Position numbers and translations under genes: made by a program
Assembly: GCF_000193375.1 (NCBI RefSeq)
Contig: NC_015315.1
Span: forward strand, 504,622-568,621
Reading direction: 5' to 3'
DNA from: Thermoproteus uzoniensis 768-20
GTDB taxonomy: Archaea > Thermoproteota > Thermoprotei > Thermoproteales > Thermoproteaceae
DNA: 64,000 nucleotides
In this document: one piece after another, positions 9,227 to 47,971 of the stretch
Position numbering within the stretch: position 1 is the first letter of the stretch
Layout of the letters: each line of letters begins with the position of its first letter
Notes under the pieces: model-generated
The model's input: the letters and a program-made list of their open reading frames with translations, nothing else
The model's database searches: none
Told to the model about the DNA's origin: nothing

Positions 9227-9263
9227 CATGACACGCCGCAATCGTCAAGCCGCACAACGCAAA

Positions 9264-9271
9264 ATTTATCA
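9264..9271 (+). promoter_or_regulatory. TATA box of surface cluster A
   Basis: ATTTATCA centred about 24-25 nt before the GTG at 9292; a second A+T stretch (AATATATA, 9271-9278) abuts it. No other box is evident before the next four genes, so it probably drives the whole cluster. Confidence 0.5.
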
Positions 9272-9291: not shown

Positions 9292-10764
9292 GTGCAGTCG
9301 ATAGAGCTCGTAGTCGTGGGGTTCGTCATAGTGTTCTTCATAGCCATCACGTTCTACGTGGCTGGGGCGCTGTCGGCACAGCCCCAGGCCCAGCAGGCAG
9401 AGCTGAACGTAATGGCCCAACAGATACTGCAGAGGATAACCACATACAGCGCATACAACCTGTCGCAGGATGTAGGGGTGGCCGATCCCAACGCGCCCGG
9501 CTACCTGAGCGACTACGCCATAGACTATCTGGCAATGGCGTCCGCCCAGCTGTCCGGATACCCGGCGTGTTATATGAATAAAACACAAAGCGAGCTCGCC
9601 AGTACAGTAGGCTCTACCGTATACCTGGTCGGCTACGGTTATGTCATACCCAACCTAATACAGGGCACGCTGAACTTGACGGCCATAGCGCGCAATCTCT
9701 TCGGGAATAACTATAATAGATACGACGTGGAGATCCAGATAAAGCCGCTGGTCAGAATGGCCATATGCCCCTATGTAACCGTCACGGTCTCCGGGAAATC
9801 CGTTACGTTTAAGAACACCGGGAGTCCTATATGCCGCCAGTTCTACTCGGCGATGGGACAGAGCCTAACCAACGGTACAGTATACATAGTCGCCAGAGGA
9901 TCCTCCGCGAACCCATCTGGCAACGTAATCTACACAGTTTACTACTGCACAATACAACAGTCTAGTTCTAATTCGAAATCCGCAAGCACTTGCTACCCGC
10001 CGTATACTACGAGAACAGCGCTTGCGCCGCTTGGATCTAGCCCCATAGGCGGTTATTACTACAGCTACGCCGTGGCGCAGATGCCGACCTATGTCAGCTT
10101 TACGCAGATAGTAGGCGGATCCTCACCGCCATCGGCAGCTCTGGTTATCTATGCCCAGAAGGTGGACTACCCCTACAGCGCGACCTTCTACGTGTTTAAC
10201 TCTACGCCGGTATCTCTAATATATGGCGCGCCCTTCCCCGGAAATACGGCCACCAGACTCTACCTGATACATGACGCCGATTACTTACAGCCAGGCACAA
10301 CCACTCCCTGCGACGGAAGGCTGGCTAACCCATCGGGCAATCCGCCTAGTGGTAGGTCCGCTAATGGCATAAGGTACATCACTCTATATACAAGCCAGGG
10401 CCTTGTTAATTACGGCTCGAACATAACACTAAATCCAAGCAGTCAGCAAGTCCAGCCATGTGGACTATGCCAGAATCCTAGTTGTACCGCTTGTTGGCTT
10501 GATTTGCCGACAGACGCATTGCTCGCATTGGTATCTGTGGAGGCTAATTCTAACTCAGTAAATATACCGAAGGTTGCTCTCGTCCCCATACCGCTGTTCC
10601 CCGCGCCGCCAGCCACCGACGTTGATATAAAGACGTGGCTTAGGTGGGGCTTCTCAACCGCGCCCCAGGTCTACGCGGCCTCTGCCTGGGGCGTCTTCAA
10701 CTCGCTCACCACGACCTACCTCGTCAACGTGACGGTCTACGAATATCCCGGGCCTGTAAGATGA
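9292..10764 (+). CDS. Membrane-anchored secreted protein, cluster A gene 1
   Basis: A 490-residue protein I do not recognise. It has one N-terminal hydrophobic helix (residues 6-27, VVVGFVIVFFIAITFYVAGA) preceded by only a few residues, then an Ala/Gln-rich amphipathic stretch, the shape of an archaeal pilin or pseudopilin. The rest is extracytoplasmic in character: many N-glycosylation sequons (NLS, NKT, NLT, NGT), Tyr/Ser/Pro richness and several Cys, including a cluster near residue 395 (CGLCQNPSCTACW). GTG start 9292 has a TATA box about 25 nt upstream. It overlaps the next gene by four bases. Base composition falls in the second half (10,300-10,560) relative to neighbours. Confidence 0.75.
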   Translation: MQSIELVVVGFVIVFFIAITFYVAGALSAQPQAQQAELNVMAQQILQRITTYSAYNLSQDVGVADPNAPGYLSDYAIDYLAMASAQLSGYPACYMNKTQSELASTVGSTVYLVGYGYVIPNLIQGTLNLTAIARNLFGNNYNRYDVEIQIKPLVRMAICPYVTVTVSGKSVTFKNTGSPICRQFYSAMGQSLTNGTVYIVARGSSANPSGNVIYTVYYCTIQQSSSNSKSASTCYPPYTTRTALAPLGSSPIGGYYYSYAVAQMPTYVSFTQIVGGSSPPSAALVIYAQKVDYPYSATFYVFNSTPVSLIYGAPFPGNTATRLYLIHDADYLQPGTTTPCDGRLANPSGNPPSGRSANGIRYITLYTSQGLVNYGSNITLNPSSQQVQPCGLCQNPSCTACWLDLPTDALLALVSVEANSNSVNIPKVALVPIPLFPAPPATDVDIKTWLRWGFSTAPQVYAASAWGVFNSLTTTYLVNVTVYEYPGPVR

Positions 10765-11204
10765 GGTGGGTCCTCGAGCTCCTCTTCGCCGTATTGTTGG
10801 TGGCGCTAGCCATCTACGCCATGACGCTGTTGCCTAGAAGCCCCGTATCGACGACCATGGGCAGACAAGACGTCGAGACGGCCTACAACACCCTCCTCCA
10901 GCTCTCCCTAAGCCCCACGTTCCTCAACGCGCTCGACTCCGCGATATGCTCCGGCAGTCCGGCTGCCGTTAAGTCGGCCCTCGACTCGCTGATCCCGCAG
11001 TCGTACATATACAACTTCACGGTGTATCTGGCCGGCGGCTCCCCGCCGCCTTGCCTAGTATGCGCGACGTGGAACCAGAAGCTCCTCTCGGTAGCCCGGC
11101 CCACGGGCTGGGGAGGATCGGCCTCCTCCTCGTCGGCCGCCGTCTCCGCCGTCCTCCCCGACGGCACCCAGGTCAAGATAGTGCTGTACGTGGCGAGGCC
11201 ATGA
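10761..11204 (+). CDS. Small pilin-like secreted protein, cluster A gene 2
   Basis: A 147-residue protein with a single N-terminal membrane helix (MRWVLELLFAVLLVALAIYA) and a 120-residue Ser/Pro-rich exterior domain holding three Cys, two of them in PPPCLVCATW. No family is recognised. The ATG overlaps the preceding stop (ATGA at 10761), which defines the start and implies translational coupling; the same overlap joins it to the next gene. The compact size and N-terminal anchor suggest a minor pilin or pseudopilin that caps or bridges the larger cluster A proteins, but this is inference from layout. Confidence 0.72.
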   Translation: MRWVLELLFAVLLVALAIYAMTLLPRSPVSTTMGRQDVETAYNTLLQLSLSPTFLNALDSAICSGSPAAVKSALDSLIPQSYIYNFTVYLAGGSPPPCLVCATWNQKLLSVARPTGWGGSASSSSAAVSAVLPDGTQVKIVLYVARP

Positions 11205-14200
11205 AGGGCCAGTGGATAGTCCTGACGGCGCTGGCCGTCGTCGTGGCCGTGGCGGTGATATACATGGCCTACGTCTCCTCTACCATAGTCCCCGTCGCCT
11301 CTATCCAGAGGCCCGCCTACGGCATAATGAGCCAGAACTGGCCCGAGCTGGTCCAGCTACTGTCGGGCTACGCCACGTTCCTGGCCCAGTCCGCCGCCTC
11401 GAAGATATCCTCCGGCGCGCTGGACGCCGGCCTCTACAACAACCTCCTCCAGACGCACCCCAACGATATATACTTCCAGCTACAGGCGACGTCGCAGTAC
11501 GCGGCCTCCGCCCTATCGGCGGTGGAGCAGAGCCTCATACCCCTCGGCACGTTCGTAGCGGGGAGCTACGCGATCGACCAAGGCGGCTTCGGCGGGACGC
11601 TCGGGCCCTATCCGGCCGCCGTCATTCTCAGCGACGCCTATAACTTCTCCTACTGGTGGAACATGGGCGCACTCTCGGCGCCGGGCGTCTACAAGGTCTA
11701 TAGATTCGTGGTGACGCCCTACAGCCAGATCCTGAACAGCGACTACGTAATAATCTACTCGGCCGACGTGAGGAGGCCCACTTCGGTAGGCGAGAGCTAC
11801 AGCGTCCCCATAGCCGACATACTCAACCAAGCCAGATCGGGCAACGGCTACGACGCCAGCCTGCTCAAGCAGAAGCTCTACCTCATACTGGTCAACAACA
11901 CGGCGCTGGGTCAGGCCGTACAGTACTACGTCACGCAGGGTTGTAACTACCATAACCCCAACGTGGTTGGGAACTTCAGCGCCATGCTGGCGAGGGCCTT
12001 CGTCCAGCTGCCTTGGTGGTCCGAGTACCTCAAATGCCCCTTCTGCCTCTTCGACTTCAAGATGCCGAGAGGTTCCCTAGCCTCGCCCGGCGTATCCGAC
12101 GAGGTGATGGTGCTCCTGTACAGCCAGCCCACCTCCAGCGTCTACCTGACCCTCAACATCCCGCTCATGATGCAAGCGTTCGGCAAAACGCCTCCCTCCA
12201 AGGGGCCCAACTTCTGCTACGACTCGGCCAACTACCAATACGTCTATCAGACACCGGCGTCGCCTAGCCTAAACAACAACCCCTATGCCGTCTATAACTT
12301 CAGCGGGATCAACGGCTTCTTCAACGCCGCGGCTATGGCGAGCTGGCCTAGCTCTATAACGTACAGCATGTGTCATCAAGTAGGGCCGGAGAATACGCCG
12401 ACCCCCATAGAGCAACTAGTCACAACTTCGGTCTATGGCAACAGCACCACGGGCCTCCTCCTAGGGGCGATATACCCGGCGGGCACCTACGACGTGGGCT
12501 ACCAGATATGGAACGGCTTCACGGTGCCGTCGAATTGGCCCGGCTTCCAGGTAAGGGTATTGGTGAATATAACAAATCCAAATGAGGACGAGATGGGCTA
12601 CCTAGCTCTGTTCTGGGGAGGATATGACGGGACTACCTTCCCCTGGTGTGCCGACATGGTCGCAGTACAGCCCAAGGCCAATCCGCAGGAGTTCACGTGG
12701 TCGTACTTGCCTCAGGGGTTCGGTTCGGGCCCGTGGCATATCTTCTCCTGGCAACAGGGTATAGCCTACTCATCTATGGATAGTAATAGGTGGTATATAC
12801 TCTCTATATCTCAAACAAATACTGGTAATATATATTTATCTGTATACAAGTTTTTATCTAATTCGACAGGTCCCATGACTCTGTATTCGGCTCGATGGAT
12901 CCAATCACAGTCCTTCTTGCGGAGCTTTAACATAGTATTGGGAACTGACGTGGAGGATGCCACCATGAGCACGGACTGGAACAACACCGCTGTTTACGAC
13001 TTCCTCGCTGTCAGGCCTTGGGCCTATCCAGAGCCGTCTGCGGTCTTGACAACGCTGGGCTCGGCCCCCGTCGTGAATCCGCCTCGGCAGATAGTGCTGG
13101 CCTACGGGACCACGTCCTACGTGAGGTCGTCGGCATCTCTGCTGGGCAACATATCGCTGGCTCTCGTCACCGACCTCAACATAAACCGAACTATATCTGT
13201 CAACGCAACGACGAAATACGTACTCTTCCAGAGAATCAACGCGACGTATAACCTATACACCTACGGCGTATTAGTTAAGGCCAATGCGCCTAGGAGTGCC
13301 CTCAGTACAAACTTCGCGATTTACCTAAACTATGGCGGTATTCTCTACAACTACACATGTGGAGTGGTTAACGTATGCAACCAAACGCTGGCGACTTACT
13401 ACGGATATTTCGGCGGGATCGACGTAGCTCTCTACAACGTGACCTTCCTTGTGCCCCGTCATTCGAGCTTTGCCGTCGTGGCCCAGTTGCTAGGGGCTCA
13501 GCTAGCTGTCAACAATCTGACTGTGGTACATCCCCAAGTCTACTATATCTGGAGCGGCAATTCGCTCTATCTTATCAATATAGGCAATATGGACGCCGTA
13601 TTCTATTTCCCCTGGCAGTCCGGCAGACCGATAGTTCAGTCAGTCACGCCAAACGACGGCGTCTTTGGAGCCAGGCTAGATATAGCCGGCCCGAACGGCA
13701 ACAAGTGGACTCTAGTAATAGTGCCGCCCGCCAGCGCCGTCAACGTAACTCTGACAGCCGGGCAACAAAATATCAACCTCTATGCCCCTACATGGGAACA
13801 GCAATTCCTATATCAAGCCCCTCTCGGCAGTAACTGCCGTTTGTTGCAAGTATATTTCCCATCTAACTACGCCGGCACCAATCTGACATTAATAATACCA
13901 CCAGCTATCCTTAATTCATTAGGTTTCAAAACAAGTACCTTCAACACATTAAGCTTTACAATATTCACAAGCAACGGTTGGAGCCCGCCCTTGAAATACT
14001 CAGTTGCAGGCTGGGGCGACGTCTGGCTTAACGTGGCTCAAAACAAGGGATGGTTTGCGTATAGAGGAACTTTATTACAGATATGTCCCACCTCAACTAA
14101 ACAATCATCGGCTATGAGTGCTGTAGCTATATATTATAATCCATCTATATCCCAATCGACGTATGCAATAGGCAAGTATGCCAATCTAGCCTATTATCCC

Positions 14201-14692
14201 GACGGATTCGCCGTTGTAGTGAACGCGTCTTCGCCACCTTCGCAAGTCATGCTGACCAACACGACGCAGTTCTCCGCATGGTGTTCTATCGGCACGCCTG
14301 CTGGTAGCTTTATAGCAATATTCAGAGGAAGTTCTGGTTTTTCGCCTTGGCTTAACCAGTATGCCGGCTACTGCTATAACCAGTTTATCTGGAATACCAA
14401 TGGCACGGGCTCCGAGATCTACTTCGTGCTTGCTTTGACTAAACAGTTTGCTAGTTACCACATAGCGACGATGTCAAATAATCTCCTCAATACTTACGAT
14501 AAATGGTGGTTTAATTCTCTGCCTAACACGGCATACAATTCTATCTTACTAGCTTGTAGTAGCTGTAATGGGCCCTTCAAGAGCTTTAACTACGTATATG
14601 TCACTGGCACCACCTACGGCATCGTCGTGATTCCCTACACCTGGCCTCTGCCTTACTTTATATTGGACGGACAAATTTATCAGACCATATGA
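11201..14692 (+). CDS. Giant membrane-anchored surface protein, cluster A gene 3
   Basis: A 1163-residue protein of no recognised family. It begins MKGQWIVLTALAVVV, a single hydrophobic helix after an M-K-G tripeptide, and the remainder is rich in Tyr, Asn, Ser, Thr and Trp with dozens of N-glycosylation sequons, typical of archaeal surface or adhesin proteins made largely of beta strands. Residues around 495-640 resemble a jelly-roll or lectin-type domain (WNGFTVPSNWPGFQVRVLV, then WHIFSWQQG), a tentative reading. Start is fixed by the ATGA overlap at 11201. Two stretches (12,780-12,860 and 13,850-14,170) are markedly A+T-rich. The same MxGQW opening occurs at 50185 in cluster B. Confidence 0.75.
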   Translation: MKGQWIVLTALAVVVAVAVIYMAYVSSTIVPVASIQRPAYGIMSQNWPELVQLLSGYATFLAQSAASKISSGALDAGLYNNLLQTHPNDIYFQLQATSQYAASALSAVEQSLIPLGTFVAGSYAIDQGGFGGTLGPYPAAVILSDAYNFSYWWNMGALSAPGVYKVYRFVVTPYSQILNSDYVIIYSADVRRPTSVGESYSVPIADILNQARSGNGYDASLLKQKLYLILVNNTALGQAVQYYVTQGCNYHNPNVVGNFSAMLARAFVQLPWWSEYLKCPFCLFDFKMPRGSLASPGVSDEVMVLLYSQPTSSVYLTLNIPLMMQAFGKTPPSKGPNFCYDSANYQYVYQTPASPSLNNNPYAVYNFSGINGFFNAAAMASWPSSITYSMCHQVGPENTPTPIEQLVTTSVYGNSTTGLLLGAIYPAGTYDVGYQIWNGFTVPSNWPGFQVRVLVNITNPNEDEMGYLALFWGGYDGTTFPWCADMVAVQPKANPQEFTWSYLPQGFGSGPWHIFSWQQGIAYSSMDSNRWYILSISQTNTGNIYLSVYKFLSNSTGPMTLYSARWIQSQSFLRSFNIVLGTDVEDATMSTDWNNTAVYDFLAVRPWAYPEPSAVLTTLGSAPVVNPPRQIVLAYGTTSYVRSSASLLGNISLALVTDLNINRTISVNATTKYVLFQRINATYNLYTYGVLVKANAPRSALSTNFAIYLNYGGILYNYTCGVVNVCNQTLATYYGYFGGIDVALYNVTFLVPRHSSFAVVAQLLGAQLAVNNLTVVHPQVYYIWSGNSLYLINIGNMDAVFYFPWQSGRPIVQSVTPNDGVFGARLDIAGPNGNKWTLVIVPPASAVNVTLTAGQQNINLYAPTWEQQFLYQAPLGSNCRLLQVYFPSNYAGTNLTLIIPPAILNSLGFKTSTFNTLSFTIFTSNGWSPPLKYSVAGWGDVWLNVAQNKGWFAYRGTLLQICPTSTKQSSAMSAVAIYYNPSISQSTYAIGKYANLAYYPDGFAVVVNASSPPSQVMLTNTTQFSAWCSIGTPAGSFIAIFRGSSGFSPWLNQYAGYCYNQFIWNTNGTGSEIYFVLALTKQFASYHIATMSNNLLNTYDKWWFNSLPNTAYNSILLACSSCNGPFKSFNYVYVTGTTYGIVVIPYTWPLPYFILDGQIYQTI

Positions 14693-15375
14693 GAGGCTTG
14701 GAGGCTCTGGAGGTGGCCATCCTTCTGTCGGTGTCCCTCGCTATAATATTCGCCGCAGTGCCCTATATAGTCCAGAACATATTCCAGATAGAGGCGAGCC
14801 TCGAGGCCAAGAACGTTATGGCTTTCCTGACGGCGTTGGCAGACTCGCTGGAGACCGACTTCGGCATGACTGGCGTCCAGAGGATGTACCAGTTGCCCAA
14901 CTCGTACTTCGGCTCGTTCTACGTGAGGACGCCCAGGCTCTACGTGACGGTCCAGTGCGGCGGCGTGTCGCAGACCTACGTGTTCAGAGAGGCCGTGATC
15001 GGCTACAACTCGACCTACGTCGAGTTCGGCAACTCGATGCTTAGAGGCCTCAACGGCTCCCTCGCAGTGCCTATAGGCGAGCCTGTGGTGGCCGTAAACT
15101 CGACCTACCCGAGGACTGTGAGGCTCTACAGCCGCGTCGTCTTCGTCAACGGGACCAACTCGCTGTACCTCTACACGATCTCGGCCTCCTTCACGCAACA
15201 AGGCAACGGCGGCGTCCTCGCCTACGTGGTAGGTCCGCTGAACTCCACGTCGATTAGTTGCGGCGGAAGCGTCAACGTCGTAGTGCAGAGCAGGCTGGGC
15301 TCCAAGACCGTCTCGTTCAACAACATCAAGAACATCTACATAGTCTGGAACAACATCACCCTTATCTGGAAATGA
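14689..15375 (+). CDS. Pilin-like protein, cluster A gene 4
   Basis: A 228-residue protein opening MRGLEALEVAILLSVSLAI: a basic residue and Gly directly before a hydrophobic helix that starts with a Glu-containing segment, which fits the archaeal class III (PibD/EppA/FlaK) prepilin leader with cleavage after R-G. The body is extracytoplasmic, with repeated NST/NGS/NGT sequons and two Cys. Start fixed by an ATGA overlap with the preceding gene at 14689. A matching A24 prepilin peptidase is encoded at 58965. Which filament it belongs to cannot be told from sequence. Confidence 0.75.
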   Translation: MRGLEALEVAILLSVSLAIIFAAVPYIVQNIFQIEASLEAKNVMAFLTALADSLETDFGMTGVQRMYQLPNSYFGSFYVRTPRLYVTVQCGGVSQTYVFREAVIGYNSTYVEFGNSMLRGLNGSLAVPIGEPVVAVNSTYPRTVRLYSRVVFVNGTNSLYLYTISASFTQQGNGGVLAYVVGPLNSTSISCGGSVNVVVQSRLGSKTVSFNNIKNIYIVWNNITLIWK

Positions 15376-15956
15376 GAGGCATATCGGCGATCGAGGCGGC
15401 CATACTCTTCGGCTTCATGGCCGCCGCGTACCTCCTCGCCTCATACCTCGTGTGGCTGCTGTCGTACCAAGCCTTCCAGCAAGAGGCGGCCACCACCGCT
15501 AAGCTGATGGCGCGTTACGTGGCCTCGCAAGTGGCCGACCTAGCGTCCTCGTCGTTGACGCCGGGGGTGAGGTCCATCAGCTACAAGCTGTTTCTCCCGA
15601 CGCAGTTCCCCAACTTCGACGCGTACTCCTACTCCATAGCGCTGGTCAACAACTCCACTAGGCCGGGCACCGTCTCGCTCTACGTGGTGCTGAACTTCAC
15701 GGCATATCGCGGGTCGTTCGCGGCGAGCCTCTACAGGGTCTCGTCGTTCGCCTACAGCCTAAACGCCTCGTTCGCAGGCGTGAGGATATACGCCACGAAC
15801 TTCGACGGCGTGATTGGGGGGTCCTCATGCGTCGTCCCGTCCCCGGTGGCGCCCGGCCTAAACGCCGTCAACCTCACGCGGCCGGGATGCGGCGCCCTTT
15901 GGTACGCTCCTACGCCGGCCAACTACAAGCTTCTGACCGTCGTGAGGAGCGGCTAG
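15372..15956 (+). CDS. Pilin-like protein, cluster A gene 5
   Basis: A 194-residue protein opening MRGISAIEAAILFGFMAAAYLLAS, again R-G followed at once by a hydrophobic helix with an internal Glu, the hallmark that aligns pilin subunits. The exterior domain has NNST and NFT sequons and two Cys. ATGA overlap with gene 4 at 15372. It is the last gene of cluster A; mptE starts at the base after its stop codon, so the polycistron may continue into a pterin biosynthesis gene. Confidence 0.75.
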   Translation: MRGISAIEAAILFGFMAAAYLLASYLVWLLSYQAFQQEAATTAKLMARYVASQVADLASSSLTPGVRSISYKLFLPTQFPNFDAYSYSIALVNNSTRPGTVSLYVVLNFTAYRGSFAASLYRVSSFAYSLNASFAGVRIYATNFDGVIGGSSCVVPSPVAPGLNAVNLTRPGCGALWYAPTPANYKLLTVVRSG

Positions 15957-22001: not shown

Positions 22002-22778
22002 ATGAGCCTAGTTGCCCGCGCTCTTTTCCCCAAAGGCAAGGAGCCCCGCTATGCCTTCGAGGCGTTAATCTCGATGTTGCCTGAGATTACTCTGAGCTTC
22101 ACGACGGACGGCATATCCATAAAGGCGCTCGATCCCAGCAAGGTTGCGCTATTACAGCTGGACTTCACGGCGGGCGGCCTCGAGGAGTACTCGGTCGACC
22201 ACGACGTGAAGATAGGCCTAATACTGTCCTCGGTGAAGGAGGCGCTGAAGCGCGTCGGCGCCGCGGAGAAGCTGGAGATAGGCGTGGACGAGGAGAGGAA
22301 GCGGTTCGTCATGATGGTATACCCCAAGAAGGGGCGCGAGGCTGGCATATCGCGGAGGTTTTCGTTTCCGATAGTCCAGTTGGCCGAGGAGGAGGTCCCC
22401 GAGATAAATATAGAGTACGAGGCCTCGTTCGAGATGGACTCGGCCGCTTTCGACGACATGATGGCGTTGGCCGAAAGCGTCTCCGACGCGGTGGCCATAC
22501 AAGTATCCCAGGACTCTGTAGTGTTCAGCGCGGAGGGCGAGGGGGGTAGAGAGGCCGTCAGTGAGTTCGGCCGCGACAGCGAGTCTTTGTACGACGTAAA
22601 CGCGCAGGGGACGGTGAAGGCGAAGTACTCGGTGGAGCTTATCAGAAACGTGTCGGGGAAGCTCAAGGGCATTAGCAAAAGAGTTAAGGCAGAGCTCGGC
22701 GACGCCAAGCCTCTGAAGCTCACCTACGAGTTCGCAACCGGCACCTTCACGATGATACTGGCCCCCCGCGCCGACTGA
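22002..22778 (+). CDS. pcn: DNA polymerase sliding clamp PCNA
   Basis: A 258-residue PCNA, the ring-shaped clamp that tethers replicative polymerase, Fen1, ligase and other enzymes to DNA. Two similar halves are seen, each with the beta-rich clamp fold: residues 1-125 with FTTDGISIKALDPSKVALLQLDF (shown by its start FTTDGISIKALDPSK) and residues 130-258 ending YEFATGTFTMILAPRAD, the typical C-terminal strand. Crenarchaeota often carry two or three paralogues; only one is in this window. Its stop codon overlaps the ATG of a pilin-like gene by one base. Confidence 0.95.
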   Translation: MSLVARALFPKGKEPRYAFEALISMLPEITLSFTTDGISIKALDPSKVALLQLDFTAGGLEEYSVDHDVKIGLILSSVKEALKRVGAAEKLEIGVDEERKRFVMMVYPKKGREAGISRRFSFPIVQLAEEEVPEINIEYEASFEMDSAAFDDMMALAESVSDAVAIQVSQDSVVFSAEGEGGREAVSEFGRDSESLYDVNAQGTVKAKYSVELIRNVSGKLKGISKRVKAELGDAKPLKLTYEFATGTFTMILAPRAD

Positions 22779-23140
22779 TGAACTCTCTGGCCCTCCTCCT
22801 CTTGCTGATCTTCACGCTGGCGCTCGCCTTCGCTTTCTTCTGGTTTGCCTATACCACATTCGTGTCGACGTCGAGCACAATAGTGACCATAAGAGCTGCT
22901 ATGCTGTATTACGAGAACGGCACGTTGAGGCTGGTCGTGGTGAATCCGGGGCCAAACCCCGTCTATGTAGATGCCGTGTATCTCTCCGGCGCTAAGTGCA
23001 ACTTGACCAACAACCCGTACATACGACAGGGGACCGTGGCCGAGATAGATGCCGTATGCCCGCGCCCGCAGGCCGCCGCGGCGCAGGGGATGTTGATCGC
23101 CAACGGCTATTCGTTGCCCTTCACGGCTTCGATATCTTGA
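22778..23140 (+). CDS. Pilin-like protein coupled to PCNA
   Basis: A 120-residue protein with an N-terminal hydrophobic helix (residues 4-27, ALLLLLIFTLALAFAFFWFA) preceded by three residues, then an exterior domain with two Cys, an NGT and an NLT sequon. Shape and size match the pilin-like proteins of clusters A and B, but there is no R/K-G before the helix. The ATG shares its A with the PCNA stop codon, so it must be translated from the pcn mRNA. No replication role is evident. A perfect palindrome follows its stop by eight bases. Confidence 0.7.
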   Translation: MNSLALLLLLIFTLALAFAFFWFAYTTFVSTSSTIVTIRAAMLYYENGTLRLVVVNPGPNPVYVDAVYLSGAKCNLTNNPYIRQGTVAEIDAVCPRPQAAAAQGMLIANGYSLPFTASIS

Positions 23141-40535: not shown

Positions 40536-41102
40536 ATGGAGCACTTGTCCATATACCGCATGGCCGACGCCGTCCACGCACTGTTTGCGATCGATAGAGA
40601 GCCGTATGCGCTGAACGCATTTCTGAAGATAGCAAACAGCTGGGTGTTAAGAGCGCTTTCCGACGTTCCGGGCTCAGATCTCAGAAGACGTGCCTGTGGG
40701 GCGTTCATAAGACTGCTAGACAAAGCACGGAGCGTATTGGAAGCCCCGGCGGCCGTCAGAGCGCCCTGCTCGCCTAGAGGCGCGGCAAAGATAGATTCTA
40801 TCAAATACAGCGGTTGCGCCAAGTTTTTGGCAGAGTGGGGGGCGGAGTTTGTCTATAGGTTTGTCTACGACGAAAGGATAAGGGCTAGGGCCATAAAAGC
40901 CGCCGCGAGAAATCTGGCGGCCTATATGCAGTACGGCTTGAAAGTCGAGGGCCCGTATGCTGACGACTGGCTCGTCCTCGCCGAGGTTCCGCCGAGCCAT
41001 GAGCCCCGCGACGTCGTGTGGAAGCCCTTTATGGCCAGAATAAGGGTAGATATATTGCCTCAATGCGTGCAGCTGTCCGCGGATGCTAGGACATGGATGT
41101 AA
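40536..41102 (+). CDS. Unrecognised protein, first gene of cluster B
   Basis: A 188-residue soluble protein of unknown family. It opens MEHLSIYRMADAVHALFAID, is helical, and has paired Cys (APCSPRG near residue 78 and SGCAKF near 95) and a conserved-looking FVYDERIRARAIKAAARN stretch. ATG 40536 is preferred to ATG 40521 because the strongest A+T box (40511-40520) is closer to the leaderless distance. It overlaps the next gene by ten bases. Position at the head of the Tad-like operon suggests a machine-specific accessory. Confidence 0.6.
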   Translation: MEHLSIYRMADAVHALFAIDREPYALNAFLKIANSWVLRALSDVPGSDLRRRACGAFIRLLDKARSVLEAPAAVRAPCSPRGAAKIDSIKYSGCAKFLAEWGAEFVYRFVYDERIRARAIKAAARNLAAYMQYGLKVEGPYADDWLVLAEVPPSHEPRDVVWKPFMARIRVDILPQCVQLSADARTWM

Positions 41103-41794
41103 AGATCGATATAATAAATGCAGACAATCTCGCCGACTTCTTGAGGAAGCAAGCCGGAGCTACGGTGATAGATCCATATCCCGAAATCGTGCCGACGGCG
41201 CTGGAGGACAAACTGCTATATCTAGCTTCGTCAATATACGGAGGGATAAGCCCTCTACCGCTGTTCTCGTTCGAGAAAGGAGGGAGCCGTTATTTACTGT
41301 CGCCGAGGCTTCACAAGCTTTTGGCCGACCTAATGCCGGGCCTCAAGGTGCTCCATATAGAGGTCGTCGGCGAGCCGCAGTACCCGTTTACGGCGATCGC
41401 GCTCGTGCTCAGAGATCTCGGCATCAGCGCCGACGAGGAATTCCTCAAGGAGCACGTCTGTCCCGAGCTTGCCGCGTTGGAGGAGGACGACGTGCCGCTG
41501 GCACGCGCCATAAGATCCGCCGTGTCTAAATACCTGACGATAGCGCCGTCGGGCGCCTCGACGCGATCGATAAGGTGTCTCTGCGGGCTCTGCGAGGATC
41601 GCGGCAGTGGACTAGACCTAGACGCGCTGGCGTTGAGCTTGACGAAGCGAAGCGTGTCGAGGGCATACAGCCGCCGCGGGTTAACGGAACTAAACGACGA
41701 GGACAGAGCCATAATCATGCGAGTCATAAGAGGGCTTTCCATACCCGAATTCAGAAGGGAGCTCATCGATCTGCTCAACCGATATGAGGTATAG
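41093..41794 (+). CDS. Unrecognised cytoplasmic protein of cluster B
   Basis: A 233-residue protein with no family recognised. Regions: an N-terminal alpha/beta part (MDVKIDIINADNLADFLRK), a middle with helix and strands (KVLHIEVVGEPQYPFTAIAL), a Cys-rich loop RCLCGLCEDRG near residue 162 that might bind a metal ion, and a helical end with DEDRAIIMRVIRGLSIPEF. It overlaps both neighbours by about ten bases, so all three starts are coupled. Confidence 0.6.
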   Translation: MDVKIDIINADNLADFLRKQAGATVIDPYPEIVPTALEDKLLYLASSIYGGISPLPLFSFEKGGSRYLLSPRLHKLLADLMPGLKVLHIEVVGEPQYPFTAIALVLRDLGISADEEFLKEHVCPELAALEEDDVPLARAIRSAVSKYLTIAPSGASTRSIRCLCGLCEDRGSGLDLDALALSLTKRSVSRAYSRRGLTELNDEDRAIIMRVIRGLSIPEFRRELIDLLNRYEV

Positions 41795-42137
41795 ACGCGG
41801 CGACTTCGAGGCGTCGTTTGTGCGGATAGGCGAGGACAAGTACAGAGTCGAGTTGAAGTATAGGGGAAGGCCTCTGAAGATTAAGAAGATTGTTTTGGAG
41901 TATCTCGTCCACGATCGTTACAGATATGCCGTAGATCCCCACAGCGAGGTCCTCTACGTATTTATCTCGCGGGCGCCTCCCGTAGTTGTCAAGTCGGCAT
42001 GGAGGTCCTCCAAGATGATAGCGAAGGCCAAGGACGGCGCCCTGGCCGCCGTCGCCGACGTTGTCCTCGACTTTGCCGAGGCCTACATGACGGCGTACAG
42101 GGCCAACGCCCTCGATAGATTATTCCATGAGGACTAA
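41784..42137 (+). CDS. Unrecognised small protein of cluster B
   Basis: A 117-residue basic protein (MRYRRGDFEASFVRIGEDKY at the start; beta strands KYRVELKYRGRPL and YVFISRAPPVVVK; a helical end with LAAVADVVLDFAEAYM). No family recognised. It overlaps the preceding gene by eleven bases and the MinD-like gene by eleven bases. It may be a partner of the ATPase that follows, as is common for small genes upstream of CpaE/MinD homologues. Confidence 0.6.
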   Translation: MRYRRGDFEASFVRIGEDKYRVELKYRGRPLKIKKIVLEYLVHDRYRYAVDPHSEVLYVFISRAPPVVVKSAWRSSKMIAKAKDGALAAVADVVLDFAEAYMTAYRANALDRLFHED

Positions 42138-42831
42138 GTTCGCGGTTTTCTTCTCGGTCGACGGCGGCGTGGGCAAGACGACGCTGGCGCTGGCCACCGC
42201 TTTTGAGAAGGAGAGGGTCCTCATAATAGATGCCGATTGGGAGAAGGCCGATCTATCCTCGATCTTCGGCGTCCCCAAAAAGCCCGGATGGCTCGCCGGC
42301 CGGTACGGCAAGGACGTCTACGTGCATAAGGTTCGGCCCAACCTCTACGTGATACCCGGCTACGAGGCGGCTATGCTTTACCAGTCCGGCAAGATAGGCG
42401 ATTCCGAGCTCTTCGAGGCGCTCTACGACACCCTAGTCGCGCTTCCCGACGCCTTGGCCGAGGAGCGCCTTCCGGTGGACACCGTGATCGTCGACACGCC
42501 GAAGGCGTTACAACTGACGTGGATTGAGGCCTTGCAGAGGAAGCTCAAGGCGCTTATGTACTTCGTAGCCGATAGGCGGCTTGTCACGAGGATAGCGGAT
42601 GTCAAGATGCAGATATACGGCAGATACATGCGCTACGCCTCGCTTATAGTGGCCAACATGCTGGAGAAGGGCGACGAGAAGGCTCCCGGTATAAAGATGG
42701 TAAACGCGTTCTTGACGAGGGTTAAGATGCCCTCCGATTACTCAGCCGAGAGGATATACAAGGCGATCCTAGGGGATCGGCGAAATAGGGAGGCTCTGTC
42801 CTTGCTAGTCAAGTGGATAAAAGAGAAGTAA
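42127..42831 (+). CDS. MinD/CpaE-like ATPase with an atypical Walker A
   Basis: A 234-residue SIMIBI-class ATPase of the MinD/ParA/CpaE group. The deviant Walker A is seen as VDGGVGKTTLALA (residues about 11-23): the second Lys is present, but the signature Lys at the start of KGG is Asp. The next conserved element, VLIIDADWEKADLSSIFG, is a normal switch I, and DTVIVDTPKALQL is switch II. In Tad pili the CpaE/TadZ protein has such a fold and localises the machine. It overlaps the small gene before it and is followed at one base by the CpaF-like ATPase. Confidence 0.85.
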   Translation: MRTKFAVFFSVDGGVGKTTLALATAFEKERVLIIDADWEKADLSSIFGVPKKPGWLAGRYGKDVYVHKVRPNLYVIPGYEAAMLYQSGKIGDSELFEALYDTLVALPDALAEERLPVDTVIVDTPKALQLTWIEALQRKLKALMYFVADRRLVTRIADVKMQIYGRYMRYASLIVANMLEKGDEKAPGIKMVNAFLTRVKMPSDYSAERIYKAILGDRRNREALSLLVKWIKEK

Positions 42832-42832
42832 G

Positions 42833-44434
42833 ATGTCTTTGGCGGGTGCCCTGTTCGCCAAGGCCGATAACTCGTTGTTGGACAGGTGCGCGTTGTTCAA
42901 GAAAGGCGTGATAGTCTACCGCAATTACGCCACAGACATCTGCATAACAGACGACGGGGAGTACGTGGTGGTCGATCCGCAGTTGCCGGAGATTCTCGAG
43001 AAGGCCCTCGCGTTAACCGCGCTTCGCGGCGCCGTGCCGCCCGATTACGGGGAATACGACAAGGCCATAAAAGACGCGTTGCTGGCGCTGGCGCCGAGCC
43101 GAGGCGTAGCCGGCTGGCGGTGGCACAGAAACGCCTTGCGGACTTATAGAGAGCATAGAGAGCTCGTACACTATTTCCTAGACAGATGGAGCGGGCGCGG
43201 CGAGTTCGGCGGCTACGGCGTGTTGGAGGCGCCTATGAGGGACGATCTGCTGACCGAGATCGCCATACCGCAACCCCTGGCGCCTCCAGGCAGGTGGAGC
43301 GAGCTTCCGCGTAATCCGTTAGAGCTCTTGGACAAAATATACGCGGAGATGGTCGAGCTGGGGCGCTACCGGCGTGTCGTCGCGATCCGCAACGAGGCGC
43401 GGATGCCCACCAACGTGGTGGTGCCAGAGGCCTTCATGCCCATATTGGTGAAGAAGCTAGTGCCGAGCTTGACCCTTGAGCGGCCGTTCCAGACCAGGGA
43501 AGATCCCGTATATCGGCTCAGGATAGCGGCGGATCTGCTCGAATACAACGTGAATATAAGGAAGATGAGCGAGCCGCCGCGGCCTTCGGCAAGCCTCATT
43601 AAGGTGTACGAGCGCCCGCGCCGGCTTGAGGACTCGGAGAGCCGGCCGAACGTCCAAGATCTTTCGGCTCTAGAGGTCTTCGCGTTGGCCACAATAGCTG
43701 CCGAGGCTAGATGGACTGTGATATTCTCAGGGGCCATGGGCACCGGCAAAACCACGCAGCTGAACCTTCTGCTCTACTTCATCCCGCCGTGGATGCAAGT
43801 CGTCATCATAGAGAGAGGCGCGCGGGAGATCTGGGCGCCTCTGGAGGGCCAGATCCTCCACATATCGGTCCCCTCGGAGTCGAGGCTCATGGAGGCTCTG
43901 GATCAAGCCCTCCGCTACGGCACCATGGCCACCATAGTGACTCTGGCAGAGGCCAGGACCAGCCAGGAGCTCAACGTCTTGGTCTCCTACAAGCTGACGG
44001 GCCACGGCGGGCTGACGACGATGCACGCCGACACCATACACGACGCCCTTCTACGTATAAAGAGGTCGGGCGCCCCTGTCGAGGCCCTCGCAAACACCAT
44101 GATTCTGCAACTAGGAGTATCCGGAGGCGAGAGGTATCTAAAGGAATGGAAAGCGTTGGTAGCGCTTGGCGGAGAGGTGGCGGAGGCGCCTGTGGCCGAC
44201 GTGTTGGGCCTTCTGAACGCCTACACTAAGTCCACATACGATACAAAGATCCTCGACGAGGTGAAGACGAGGGCCGGTTTGCTTAAGGCAATTGCGTCCA
44301 AGGAGCTGGAGCCCCTCGAGGCGCGCGAGGCCGTACTGAAGCTATTCTCCCGTAGAGAGATATCGGTGGTCGACGACGCCGTGAAGCACGGCTATCAGCT
44401 GGAAGGTAGATATTTCCATGAAGCTCAAGTTTAG
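42833..44434 (+). CDS. CpaF/VirB11-type secretion ATPase
   Basis: A 533-residue T2SS/T4SS-type ATPase that powers pilus assembly. Residues 1-260 form a lineage-specific N-terminal region; the motor domain follows, with Walker A SGAMGTGKTTQ (near residues 299-309), an Asp/Glu box VVIIERGAREIWAP, a Walker B-like ATIVTLAEARTSQE and the His box TGHGGLTTMHAD. Walker B is altered from the usual GEVRG-type sequence. ATG 42833 lies one base after the MinD-like stop. Its platform partner is at 45085. This is the energy source of cluster B. Confidence 0.9.
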   Translation: MSLAGALFAKADNSLLDRCALFKKGVIVYRNYATDICITDDGEYVVVDPQLPEILEKALALTALRGAVPPDYGEYDKAIKDALLALAPSRGVAGWRWHRNALRTYREHRELVHYFLDRWSGRGEFGGYGVLEAPMRDDLLTEIAIPQPLAPPGRWSELPRNPLELLDKIYAEMVELGRYRRVVAIRNEARMPTNVVVPEAFMPILVKKLVPSLTLERPFQTREDPVYRLRIAADLLEYNVNIRKMSEPPRPSASLIKVYERPRRLEDSESRPNVQDLSALEVFALATIAAEARWTVIFSGAMGTGKTTQLNLLLYFIPPWMQVVIIERGAREIWAPLEGQILHISVPSESRLMEALDQALRYGTMATIVTLAEARTSQELNVLVSYKLTGHGGLTTMHADTIHDALLRIKRSGAPVEALANTMILQLGVSGGERYLKEWKALVALGGEVAEAPVADVLGLLNAYTKSTYDTKILDEVKTRAGLLKAIASKELEPLEAREAVLKLFSRREISVVDDAVKHGYQLEGRYFHEAQV

Positions 44435-44684
44435 GAACAACGATGGAGATCCTGAGATCGGCCTCGACGGCCAGCTAGACTTAGGGCTGGCCGATCGCGA
44501 CGACCGCGAGGGCGATTGGGCCCTCCAGCTACTTAAGTCCCTACAGAGGGCGCCGCAGGAGATAGTCGACAGGCTAGACAGCGAACTGCTCGGGGCTGTC
44601 TTGAGGGAAGTCGCAAAGTCGGGGGGCGACGCGGGCGCGGTGGCGCGGCTGGCGCTCTCGTTGCTCGAGAGGTGTGGGAAATGA
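44418..44684 (+). CDS. Small acidic protein of cluster B
   Basis: An 88-residue acidic protein (MKLKFRNNDGDPEIGLDGQL at the start, helical DNA-free appearance later, WALQLLKSLQRAPQEIVDRL). No family recognised. It overlaps the ATPase by 17 bases and the next gene by four bases, so it is coupled on both sides. Probably a cytoplasmic regulatory or adaptor component of the machine; inference from position only. Confidence 0.55.
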   Translation: MKLKFRNNDGDPEIGLDGQLDLGLADRDDREGDWALQLLKSLQRAPQEIVDRLDSELLGAVLREVAKSGGDAGAVARLALSLLERCGK

Positions 44685-45088
44685 AGGACTGCGAGAAGTT
44701 GATAGAGGACGGGTACACGAGAGAGGCCGCCGAGGAGTTATGCGATACGGCTAAGGCCATAGGGATTAAGCCGTCCAGACTGGCCGCGGCTGCGAGGAGG
44801 CTTGAGAAGGAGGGCATAGCGTTGTTGCCCTCCGATTGGCTTGTGGTGAAGGAGGTGTTGGATAAGGGCTTCTCGTTGTCCACTGTCGTGGACTACATAG
44901 TGAAAAGGCATAGGGCCGGCCTATCGCCGTCGCAGATAATCGAGGAGTTGCCTATAGCGGCTAACAACTCAGTCAAGAGAAGCCATATCTTGGGCAACTT
45001 GCTTAAGGTGCTGGAGGCGCCCGAATACTTCGTCGTGGAGGAGGACGGCGCCAAGAAGAGCTTGTTGCAGTTATTGAGGCGTCGATGA
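44681..45088 (+). CDS. Small helical protein of cluster B
   Basis: A 135-residue helical, charged protein of no recognised family. The segment GIKPSRLAAAARRLEKEGI and the later AGLSPSQIIEELPIAANNSVKR look like winged-helix or HTH-like helical hairpins, but no DNA-binding assignment is possible. ATG 44681 forms an ATGA overlap with the previous gene and 45085 with the next one. Probably cytoplasmic. Confidence 0.55.
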   Translation: MKDCEKLIEDGYTREAAEELCDTAKAIGIKPSRLAAAARRLEKEGIALLPSDWLVVKEVLDKGFSLSTVVDYIVKRHRAGLSPSQIIEELPIAANNSVKRSHILGNLLKVLEAPEYFVVEEDGAKKSLLQLLRRR

Positions 45089-46308
45089 ACAGGGAGGAGT
45101 TCTACATATACATAGCGCCGATCTTCGCAACGTACCTATCCCACATGTCCTCCGTCGAGGCCTTGAGGCGCACGGCGGCCGAGGCGGAGAGCCTAGACCG
45201 AAAACACTCGCGCGAGCTGTTGCTAGCCAGCTTGACCCCGAACCCCGCCTCGTTGCTCTCCTCCGATGGGCTCGCCGTGGTGAGGCAGTACGGCTTCGCC
45301 GTATCTCAAGAAGAGGCGGGAGTCCCCCGCCAAGTCCTCGTGCAGTCCTTTCTGCAGGCTACTAAGTCGATAGCGCTGGGCCGTATAGAGGCCGCAATGC
45401 AGCACTTCGTGGGGCTCTTCTCGTCTCTGTCCAGCCTTATGTTCGCGCCGCTGTTATTGCTCTTCCTATACGCGTACGGCCTTCTGCCTCTCGATCTCTT
45501 CTCGTTGCTGGGCATAGCCGGAGTCTTCTCGTCGATGATAGGCCTATTGATATACAAGTCGATGCCGAAGGACCTATCGCCGACCAGGACCTACGGCCGC
45601 TCCATTTTCTTGGCGGCCTTGGCCGGGGGCGCGGCGATCTATTCATCCATTGTCTGGTCTCTTCCAATATCGCTCGGCGCCGTTGCGGCCGGCGCCGTGT
45701 TGGCCATCTGGCTTCTGGCCACAAAACGCGTGGGATGGTTTAGGCTGGCCGCCGAGATACCTGCCATGTTGAGGGACTTCGCCTCGCGTATATCCCAAGG
45801 CATCCCCGCAGATCTCGCGTTGAGAGAGGTATCGGCGACCTACAAGGTGGCCTGGATGATAGCGTACTTCTACGAAATACCGTCTCTCATGTTCTCGTTG
45901 GCCAGAGCCATGTTCAACGCGGTGAGCTGGGCCGGGCCGAGCCTAGAGGCCGTAGACTACGTCCAGACAATTCTTAGCGAAAAGGAGAGAGGGCTGAAAA
46001 GGGTCACCGCGCTCACCGCCATGTTCATAGCTGTATATATAGCGGCATCGGTGATACTGGTATATTCGCTTGCGGTATCTGTAACGGCGCTCCAAGCCGT
46101 CCCGTCGACAGGACAGTCGTTAATGTACCCGCTACCTCCCGACGAGGTGAAGTACGCGGCCGCGCAACTGCTGTCGGCTATGGTCACAGGCTTTGTCGCC
46201 GTGATGTTGCTCCCCTCAAAAGGCATGTGGACTGGCCTTCTAGCAGGCGGCCTCGCCGGTACGTCGTTCTTCTACCTAACGACGACGTTGTGGTCGCTTT
46301 GGGCATGA
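45085..46308 (+). CDS. TadC-like pilus assembly membrane protein
   Basis: A 407-residue T2SS-F/TadC-family platform protein, shorter than the 524-residue relative at the left edge. Hydrophobic helices are seen near residues 115-150, 165-185, 190-212, 305-330, 355-380 and 385-405, separated by cytoplasmic F-like segments (about 1-110 and 215-300, with LREVSATYKVAWMIAYFYE). In Tad systems this protein sits in the membrane beneath the CpaF ATPase. ATGA overlap with its upstream gene. It is the third machine component in this operon. Confidence 0.82.
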   Translation: MNREEFYIYIAPIFATYLSHMSSVEALRRTAAEAESLDRKHSRELLLASLTPNPASLLSSDGLAVVRQYGFAVSQEEAGVPRQVLVQSFLQATKSIALGRIEAAMQHFVGLFSSLSSLMFAPLLLLFLYAYGLLPLDLFSLLGIAGVFSSMIGLLIYKSMPKDLSPTRTYGRSIFLAALAGGAAIYSSIVWSLPISLGAVAAGAVLAIWLLATKRVGWFRLAAEIPAMLRDFASRISQGIPADLALREVSATYKVAWMIAYFYEIPSLMFSLARAMFNAVSWAGPSLEAVDYVQTILSEKERGLKRVTALTAMFIAVYIAASVILVYSLAVSVTALQAVPSTGQSLMYPLPPDEVKYAAAQLLSAMVTGFVAVMLLPSKGMWTGLLAGGLAGTSFFYLTTTLWSLWA

Positions 46309-46823
46309 GGGGCTTCTCGGCATTGAAACAGATAGTCGTAGTGGCCGCGTCGCTCGCGGCGATTGCCGTGATCGCGCTGGCGGTGTATAGGGCTACTATT
46401 GAAGTGAGGTCCGCATATCCTCCAGCCGAAATCGCCGTAGCGATAAAGTCCTTCAAGCCCGTGGCCGTCCCTGATTATGTGCCTGTCTATGTGGTGAAAG
46501 TCCACTATCAATTCTCTGGAGGACGCTACGTGTTGTTGCCTGGCCCCTCACCTCCAGCATGTAGCGACTGCGTGCCGCCGACAGGTTGGCTCTACGCCGT
46601 CTCGTTTGGAGCGAACGCATCGCCGATATACGGGGTCTACTACAGTGCGGCGAACTACACTATGTACGTCGGGAGAGCGGTGGTCGTGGTGCCCTATTTC
46701 AATAACGGCACACTTTACTATCTATACCCCATGTGCGCGGGCGGCTATCGTTTTTCCGAGAAGTCGGTCCATCTAGATAATGTACCTATATCTATTACTA
46801 TAATTTTACTAGATTGCTCATAA
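46305..46823 (+). CDS. Pilin-like protein with MRG leader, cluster B
   Basis: A 172-residue protein starting MRGFSALKQIVVVAASLAAI: R-G then a hydrophobic helix (about residues 8-28). The exterior part carries sequons, three Cys (CSDC near residue 86 and CAGG near 146) and a Tyr-rich end. ATGA overlap with the TadC-like gene ties it to the machine. It is probably a minor pilin or pilin-like initiator. The following 93 bases (46,824-46,916) are A+T-rich and probably hold the promoter of the next gene. Confidence 0.72.
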   Translation: MRGFSALKQIVVVAASLAAIAVIALAVYRATIEVRSAYPPAEIAVAIKSFKPVAVPDYVPVYVVKVHYQFSGGRYVLLPGPSPPACSDCVPPTGWLYAVSFGANASPIYGVYYSAANYTMYVGRAVVVVPYFNNGTLYYLYPMCAGGYRFSEKSVHLDNVPISITIILLDCS

Positions 46824-46916
46824 TAAATTTATAATATTAACTAAGAATAAAAATATAATATATTTTTATCATAAATAATGCATCTGTCGTAGTACGAGCT
46901 TATTGCTGTTTTTTCC

Positions 46917-47378
46917 ATGAGACGTCTAAAGGGACAGGCAGGCGGCATAGACGCGTTGATAATCATAGCCGTGGTGGTGGCCGTCGCCGCCATAATCGCG
47001 CTGGCCATGATGCGGATGGGCCAATCGGCCTCTGCCAATACTAGGGCACAGGTAATAGCCACCGTAGGTAGCAGGGTCATGACTGTGGAGGTCCAAGTCC
47101 TCAATGGGAGGCTCAACGCGCTCTATCTCCAGTACTGGCAACAAGGCGGGACGCCAGGCCAGCCTGTCAGCGGTACGTGCTACTACAACGGCACAAACGG
47201 CTTCGTCGAGAGCAACTCCAGTAGCATACAGCTCTACACAGGCCAATCCGCCGTGTGTTACTTTAGCCTTAACAATCTAGCATACGGCACCCAGTACAGC
47301 TACGTCATATACGGCGTTGACTCCAGCGGCAGGACTATCCAGTTGGCCCGCGGCGTGTTCACGGCGGGCGCCACCTAG
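46917..47378 (+). CDS. Pilin-like protein, probable major subunit of cluster B
   Basis: A 153-residue protein with the leader MRRLKGQAGGIDALIIIAVV: basic residues and K-G then Q-A-G-G before the helix, a longer class III-type leader than its neighbours. The hydrophobic helix covers residues 12-32. The outside domain has NGT and NSS sequons, two Cys (TCYY and AVCY) and beta-sandwich-like repeats. It is set apart from the preceding gene by 93 A+T-rich bases, so it may have its own promoter, as is common for a major pilin. Convergent 4-base overlap with a DUF192 gene. Confidence 0.72.
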   Translation: MRRLKGQAGGIDALIIIAVVVAVAAIIALAMMRMGQSASANTRAQVIATVGSRVMTVEVQVLNGRLNALYLQYWQQGGTPGQPVSGTCYYNGTNGFVESNSSSIQLYTGQSAVCYFSLNNLAYGTQYSYVIYGVDSSGRTIQLARGVFTAGAT

Positions 47379-47662
47379 AGGCAGACGATCTCTAAAAAAT
47401 CCCCTTTTTTCGGCGGCCTCTCCTCTTTCGGCAACTCGAGGGTATGCACCGCCCTCGGCTCTCTGTGGGTCTTCCAAGGCTTGAGGTACAGGACGTCCAC
47501 CACGCGCATCCTTTCGTCGAGGAATACTGCCCATATGGGCTCCAGCACGAGGAACGTGTGTATCGAGTTCACCCCAATCAAAAGGATCGGCCTGGGTCTG
47601 CGCAACATCAAGCCCAGCCCGCGCCTCAACCGATCCCTATAGCATTTTGCGTATATTTCCAT
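47375..47662 (-). CDS. DUF192-family protein
   Basis: A 95-residue DUF192-type protein. The family pattern is seen as LGLMLRRPRPILLIG near residue 16, then NSIHTFLVLEPIWAVFLDER and MRVVDVLYLKPW, though the usual FWM/N-T motif is altered to HTFLVLEPI. It lies antisense within the pilin cluster, with its stop four bases inside the pilin gene at 46917. Function unknown. Its opposite orientation breaks the cluster, so genes from 47690 on need their own promoter. Confidence 0.75.
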   Translation of the reverse strand: MEIYAKCYRDRLRRGLGLMLRRPRPILLIGVNSIHTFLVLEPIWAVFLDERMRVVDVLYLKPWKTHREPRAVHTLELPKEERPPKKGDFLEIVCL

Positions 47663-47689
47663 GGGAATAAGTAGAGGAGAGGGCGGGCC

Positions 47690-47968
47690 ATGGACGTCGA
47701 CGTGCTGGCGATAGTAGTCGTCATGGCGCTGTCGCTCGCCGTGTTGGCGCTTATACAGCCGATGGAGCTATCGTCGCCCTCGCTGTCGGCGGTTTACAGA
47801 TACTGGCCCCAATACTATAACTACACGATCCGCGGCGACGTAGCCGCCTTGAGGCCTCTGCTATCCGGGCTGACGTGCTGGCTCTACGCAAACGGCAGTT
47901 GGGTGGAGATATCGAGATCGGGAGGCCTTGGCTTGTCAATATCGGTGTTGAACTTAACCTGTAGATAA
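47690..47968 (+). CDS. Small pilin-like protein, cluster B
   Basis: A 92-residue protein with a hydrophobic helix right after MDVDV (residues 5-23, VLAIVVVMALSLAVLALIQ), then a short exterior part with NYT, NGS and NLT sequons and two Cys (TCWLYANG, NLTCR). A Shine-Dalgarno-like GGAGAGGG-type sequence lies upstream, and no R/K-G precedes the helix. First of six genes with short ATGA or few-base spacings (47690-53630). Minor pilin-like; no family recognised. Confidence 0.68.
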   Translation: MDVDVLAIVVVMALSLAVLALIQPMELSSPSLSAVYRYWPQYYNYTIRGDVAALRPLLSGLTCWLYANGSWVEISRSGGLGLSISVLNLTCR

Positions 47969-47971
47969 TCC

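Follow-up and report, generated by a model that had tools for sequence, protein, structure and literature searches.

The closest described relatives of the locus treated here are the clade 4E pili of the Thermoproteales. According to the main text of a 2016 census (PMC4858521), these comprise an ATPase and a TadC platform protein accompanied by a small cytoplasmic protein and a membrane protein, stand-alone PilA major pilins, among them one next to the locus in Pyrobaculum sp. 1860, and secreted proteins listed as 'minor pilins or adhesins'. Another point of reference is the pilus of Pyrobaculum arsenaticum, a filament that was solved by cryo-electron microscopy (PDB 6W8U) and that serves as a virus receptor (PMC7347861). 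In bacteria, the HIJK minor pseudopilins and the PilABC proteins of Streptococcus sanguinis are encoded in minor-pilin operons with one member that lacks Glu5; bacterial minor pilins prime assembly and finish at the tip, and the subunit without Glu5 is expected to be the outermost one (PMC9934059). Here we describe a five-gene operon, operon A, in a stretch of 64,000 nucleotides from Thermoproteus uzoniensis 768-20 (contig NC_015315.1, positions 504,622 to 568,621; "the window" in what follows), whose genome is a single contig of 1,936,063 bases. Operon A quite probably encodes the minor-pilin set, for priming and for the tip, of a type IV pilus that uses the TadC/UpsF-like platform protein at the left edge of the window with its ATPase, and whose filament is made of a stand-alone PilA.

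The operon lies on the plus strand and consists of A1 (9292-10764, 490 residues, GTG start), A2 (10761-11204, 147 residues), the giant subunit A3 (11201-14692, 1163 residues), A4 (14689-15375, 228 residues) and A5 (15372-15956, 194 residues). Four ATGA overlaps of 4 bases each join the genes, and each protein has one hydrophobic segment, at its N-terminus. A sequence-only reading of the window had already described five overlapping genes, a single N-terminal helix per protein and an M(R/K)G start in three of them, all of which was borne out. With a dot marking the end of the leader, A3 begins MKG·Q, A4 MRG·LEALE and A5 MRG·ISAIE. A1 begins (M)QSIE, which is the mature form with Glu5 and without a leader, and A2 begins MRW(V/I/L/M)(L/I)EL, with one helix and no prepilin site. 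The same reading called the proteins rich in glycosylation sequons, which is true of A3 to A5 and not clearly of A1 and A2. There are 1.4 (A1), 0.7 (A2), 1.8 (A3), 2.6 (A4) and 2.6 (A5) sequons per 100 residues, whereas ten cytosolic proteins encoded in the window have 0.18, and the excess over shuffles of each protein's own composition is modest (P = 0.21, 0.59, 0.03, 0.04 and 0.01, respectively). It also called the proteins unrecognised; in scans with Pfam and NCBIfam none of the five indeed passes any family cut-off, but the word is too strong, since the main text of the 2016 census (PMC4858521) counts such loci among the parts of type IV pili.

Comparison across the Thermoproteales, proposed as a check in that reading, gave a gene order common to most of the family. 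Among 19 Thermoproteaceae genomes the order A1-A2-A3-A4-A5 is kept in 15, and the operon is fragmented in three more: in G009 it is spread over two contigs, in G018 it is cut within A1, and in G012 only the start of A1 is left at a contig end. Operon A is missing only from G017, an incomplete genome. A single-protein query finds A3 in 15 of the 19 genomes, and a profile finds it in 17. A1 is 63-73% identical in the other Thermoproteus and 24-36% identical in Pyrobaculum. With the order kept across the family, operon A is conserved far beyond chance. A3 is shortened to about 405-436 residues in four Pyrobaculum genomes (L040, L041, L097, L098); the N-terminus is kept there, and in two of the four a short stretch aligns by profile near the end of the lectin-like region described below. 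The sister family has a diverged, distant cassette with large genes in another order, and the main text of the census reports a related locus without an ATPase for Vulcanisaeta and Caldivirga (PMC4858521).

Three of the five proteins are related to pilins by their N-terminal helix. In profile comparisons with PilA, the helix of A4 matches with E = 1.3e-7, that of A1 with 5.7e-6 and that of A5 with 6.1e-5; for these three proteins the best value from 20 shuffles of the PilA columns is 0.03, and the best from unrelated membrane families is 0.08. A4 and A5 are paralogues that match each other over 120 columns (E = 1.6e-7). The acidic residue at position +5 of pilins, which had escaped the earlier reading, is found in 16/16 A1 and 17/17 A4 proteins. 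In A5 it occurs in all Thermoproteus as well as in G005, G007 and G009, and the other genomes do not have it. A2 has Glu6, and residue 5 of A3 is acidic in none of the orthologues. The AlphaFold2 model of A4 has a mean predicted local distance difference test score (pLDDT) of 89.4 and shows a 55-residue helix (residues 2-56) followed by strands only, so that A4 as modelled has the lollipop layout of a pilin, a long helix with an all-beta head. Sequence searches of the PDB with the A4, A3 and A1 profiles gave matches at chance level only. A1-A5 look like minor, tip-type subunits, since the major pilin is a separate, stand-alone PilA gene. There is no support for the proposal that large and small subunits, made in a fixed ratio, are the bulk of a filament. 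The broader claim, of subunits that are secreted, anchored in the membrane and part of a filament or an adhesin system, holds up.

The linkage of operon A to pilus genes can be followed in several genera. In T. uzoniensis the platform protein is encoded at 5-1579 on the minus strand (NCBIfam UpsF, E = 1.9e-10, under the model cut-off), and its ATPase partner, matched by the BasE/FlaI/TadA models, is encoded directly to the left of the window (G000:C1:503142-504629). Both genes are present in 19/19 genomes. About 7.7 kb, holding histidine-biosynthesis and other genes, separate operon A from TadC here and in G013. In G014, G015 and G016 operon A is followed by mptE and by orf102 on the minus strand, and then, about 1 kb on, by TadC, the ATPase and a 70-residue coiled-coil protein (cc70); a membrane protein (mem173) follows too wherever the analysed stretch of these three loci extends far enough. 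In G012 the A1 start at the contig end is about 1 kb from TadC, in opposite orientation. The cc70 and mem173 genes are found beside the ATPase in Thermoproteus, in Pyrobaculum (G002; mem173 also in G007) and in G017. In Pyrobaculum a small pilin, P1, lies next to operon A, at 3-15 kb from A1 in eight Pyrobaculum-type genomes. P1 is an orthologue of Par_PilA, matching PDB 6W8U with E = 2e-18, and the match begins exactly at the known cut site, with residue 8 of the precursor as residue 1 of the mature protein. P1 and a second small pilin, P2, lie directly 5' of TadC-ATPase in G017 and G018, and in G008 (contig C72) P1 and a large beta-propeller-like protein precede TadC. Across genera, every two of operon A, PilA and TadC-ATPase are thus connected, by the linkages in Thermoproteus, in Pyrobaculum and in G008, G017 and G018. 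The shaft pilin of the putative system in T. uzoniensis is possibly the PilA-like protein encoded alone at 22778-23140 on the plus strand, which begins leaderless with MNSLA(LLLL) and matches a profile of Par_PilA orthologues with E = 9e-15.

The absence of an ATPase or platform gene from operon A had led to the suggestion of an export machine encoded elsewhere, either by the left-edge TadC or by a second cluster in the window, cluster B (41093-53630, plus strand), with a MinD-like ATPase, a secretion ATPase, a platform-like protein, MRG-led small subunits and a 957-residue protein. The conserved linkage speaks strongly for the first of these. That cluster B serves operon A instead is highly improbable: it is separate and self-contained, having an ATPase, a platform and pilins of its own, and operon A stands beside cluster-B genes at no examined locus and beside the left-edge module at three. 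The idea draws on the presence of such a complete system, MRG-led subunits included, in the same window, and on the statement in the main text of the census that pilin sets and ATPases can mix (PMC4858521). Cluster B itself fits the clade 4G pilus system of that census, and the three-residue MRG leader is frequent in cluster B as well.

Beyond its helix, A3 carries a predicted concanavalin-A-like (ConA-like) lectin/glucanase domain at 12290-13036 on the plus strand (residues ~364-612). With this region of the model, Foldseek gives 42 PDB matches at E <= 1e-3, the best at 1.4e-5, and nearly all of them are legume-type (L-type) lectins, ERGIC-53/VIP36 and calreticulin; in VIA the region reaches Z 12.6-14.2 over 176-216 residues, from a model of middling confidence. 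The A3 profile finds two archaeal proteins outside the order that carry DUF2341 above cut-off, a domain that we take to be ConA-like, and in both of them the DUF2341 stretch and the stretch that matches A3 lie side by side without overlap. A weak match to DUF7261 is seen in 5/11 A3 proteins (best 8.5e-4). A role as a GH16 enzyme was considered and rejected, since the catalytic motif ExDxxE is missing in 11/11 orthologues, so the domain is probably no glucanase. Five Trp and three Tyr are invariant in it, and with the GH16 motif absent it looks like a binding module, which, going by the predicted fold, may bind glycans. In the cassette of the sister family, the large gene that stands third has a DUF2341 match, mostly under cut-off (L099 8074-9672 and equivalents), so that a lectin-like module may there belong to another subunit. 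The parallel is a loose one, as a profile comparison between the A3 lectin region and this gene gave no match.

These data suggest a model in which the one N-terminal helix would anchor each of A1-A5 in the membrane and leave the C-terminal domain outside. A4, A5 and A1, as true pilin-type subunits, would join A2 and A3 in a small complex at the platform from which assembly starts. On the bacterial model, A3 without an acidic +5 would be unable to neutralise the N-terminus of any further subunit on top of it and would therefore be the outermost; we place it at the tip because of this lack in every orthologue, of its size, by far the largest of the five, and of the lectin-like domain. A1, A4 and A5, and perhaps A2, would sit under A3, and PilA subunits would be added below them as the shaft. 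As a tip adhesin, A3 would place the lectin domain, along with large beta domains, at the end of the pilus, where it may bind glycans of the S-layer, of other cells or of surfaces.

It is worth noting that several points weigh against this model. In Pyrobaculum, operon A lies 82-107 kb from TadC-ATPase. The helices of A2 and A3 show no similarity to PilA in the profile comparison, and with no sequence link to PilA these two count as pilins by operon membership. The beta head of A4 is like no solved pilin: a fold search with the model gave no match at E <= 1e-3, and the best VIA value was Z 2.1, although a missing fold match is no evidence for a new fold. Structure prediction of single proteins, another check proposed in the sequence-only reading and run on A4 and A3, thus gave a pilin layout for A4 (see above), but for A3 the model is poor overall (pLDDT 60.6) and yields the ConA-like region. 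Finally, Glu5 is often absent from archaeal pilins (PMC4471445), so the argument for A3 at the tip is weaker than it would be in bacteria. Some of the same observations would fit a different kind of structure, in which A1-A5 form a membrane-anchored surface complex, such as an S-layer anchor or adhesin array, with borrowed pilin-like helices and no pilus assembly. Helices of A2 and A3 unlike that of PilA would be expected there, as would the orthologues without any prepilin site, and the binding proteins of T. tenax have been described with a simple N-terminal membrane anchor (PMC3189178). We regard such a complex as unlikely, because a plain anchor would need neither the strict acid at +5 nor the exact +1 position that is kept even without a leader, and because operon A is linked to platform, ATPase and PilA genes in three genera.

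Prepilin leaders have 6-26 residues and end in Gly, with archaeal exceptions (PMC4471445). Those of operon A have three residues (M/V/L-R/K-G) or are missing, and orthologues switch between the two states. In T. uzoniensis A4 and A5 have the three-residue leader and A1 has none; in Pyrobaculum A1 mostly has one and A4 mostly does not. For A4, five Thermoproteus have MRG·LEALE and G018 has VRG·LESLE, while eleven Pyrobaculum-type genomes start with M(T/Q)SLE. The N-terminus of mature Par_PilA, MTSLE, is the same as the translated N-terminus of A4 in six compared genomes. A1 is leaderless with V or M at +1 in six Thermoproteus and in G002, and has the leader, (V/M)(R/K)G·(L/M)ES, in most other Pyrobaculum, G006 and G008 being ambiguous. 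The presence of a leader varies likewise in A5 and P2. On a tree of A2, A4 and A5, leaderless A1 appears twice, in Thermoproteus and, apart from these, in G002; the changes in A4 and A5 are independent of those in A1.

The leaderless starts are the first point to doubt, since Par_PilA orthologues were mis-started in the annotation of Pyrobaculum (PMC7347861). Besides this precedent, near-cognate codons occur upstream in a few cases, and the A1 of G012 has RRG codons just 5' of its GTG (L113 12042-12063). The latter look like the relic of a lost leader. That the leaderless forms are annotation artefacts with the true starts upstream nevertheless seems very unlikely, and the pilus would survive it as an explanation. 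In 9/11 leaderless A4 genes there is no ATG, GTG or TTG before the in-frame stop, and residue -1 in these is H, D, S or P; in the other 2 a GTG two codons upstream is possible. Many of the leaderless A4 starts are moreover pinned, because the ATG often lies within the ATGA overlap with A3. For A1 the promoter is informative. An AT-box, AAAATTTAT, lies at 9261-9269 on the plus strand, 31 nt 5' of the A1 GTG, and a box of the form CGCAAAAT(T/A)T is found at -31/-32 from this GTG in 6/6 Thermoproteus genomes. In six Pyrobaculum genomes an AAAAT box stands at -31 to -33 from the start codon of the A1 leader, (V/M)RG. The distance is thus constant for leaderless and leadered A1, so the start codon tracks the promoter despite a shift of three codons along the protein. 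As judged from the sequence, the spacing fits a leaderless mRNA that begins at the A1 start codon. (A scan for bacterial promoters and terminators was uninformative, the host being archaeal.) There is about an even chance that Thermoproteaceae make some of their type IV pilins 'born mature', so that they enter the membrane and the pilus without the prepilin peptidase, the leader having been lost several times in different subunits. The subunits that would skip the cut are A1 in T. uzoniensis and A4 and A5 in Pyrobaculum. A candidate for the peptidase of the FlaK/PibD type is encoded at 58965-59567 on the minus strand (NCBIfam FlaK, E = 3e-4, far under cut-off; the motif was judged by eye).

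Set against the known systems, the putative operon A system very probably belongs to clade 4E, an assignment made by the accessory genes. Like the systems of that clade it has an ATPase and a TadC protein accompanied by a small protein and a membrane protein, PilA genes that stand alone, and in operon A a counterpart of the secreted 'minor pilins or adhesins' in the main text of the census (PMC4858521); a gene-by-gene identity with the 4E set, for example of arCOG05475 with A4, would follow. Unlike for operon A, that main text mentions neither a lectin domain nor leaderless subunits. In our own search of the literature, the coverage of which was incomplete, neither leaderless pilins nor the A3 lectin domain turned up. 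Par_PilA, a major pilin, loses a leader of 7 residues by cleavage (PMC7347861), and A1-A5 are different, mostly larger subunits. In S. sanguinis, PilC carries a ConA-like lectin module on a large minor pilin and so provides a precedent for A3; there the Glu5-less PilA and the lectin PilC are separate proteins, whereas A3 combines both traits (PMC9934059). A1-A5 show no recognisable sequence similarity to either the HIJK or the PilABC proteins. No Pfam or NCBIfam model for GspH/I/J/K or PilY1 matches A1-A5 at E <= 1, and the likeness of the archaeal operon A to the HIJK/PilY1 tip complex, drawn by analogy, is one of layout only. In T. tenax, a putative pilus operon of twelve genes, TTX_0887-0898, was described in 2011 (PMC3189178). 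G016 should have twelve genes as well, counted from A1 to the membrane protein with the ATPase split, so the two appear to match by gene count, not by locus tags. The 2011 paper noted the ATPase of TTX_0887-0898, but it was just in its two further operons that pilin-like proteins were named. The ATPase gene of G016 consists of two overlapping open reading frames (L030 18248-19757), perhaps because of a frameshift, a sequencing error or recoding.

Some neighbouring genes may be mentioned here. The start codon of the pilin gene at 22778-23140 overlaps the end of a PCNA gene (22002-22778), and relatives of this pilin sit near operon A in G014 and G015. In Pyrobaculum a secreted beta-propeller-like protein of 919 residues (L035 5428-8187), with weak propeller matches, is encoded between the pilin pair and A1; relatives of it occur in 19/19 Thermoproteaceae genomes.

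The tips of archaeal pili are almost unknown, and the pili of the hyperthermophilic Thermoproteales are the most diverse among archaea. Operon A offers a defined five-gene candidate for the priming or tip complex of a pilus whose filament has been solved and which is a virus receptor (PMC7347861), and glycan binding by its lectin-like giant A3 is open to testing. If some pilins are indeed born mature, starter and tip subunits would not require the removal of a leader, and the peptidase would still control the major pilins. Should the leaderless subunits be built into pili, there would be natural exceptions to the rule of prepilin-peptidase cleavage for all pilins, and predictors that look for a leader will have overlooked such pilins.

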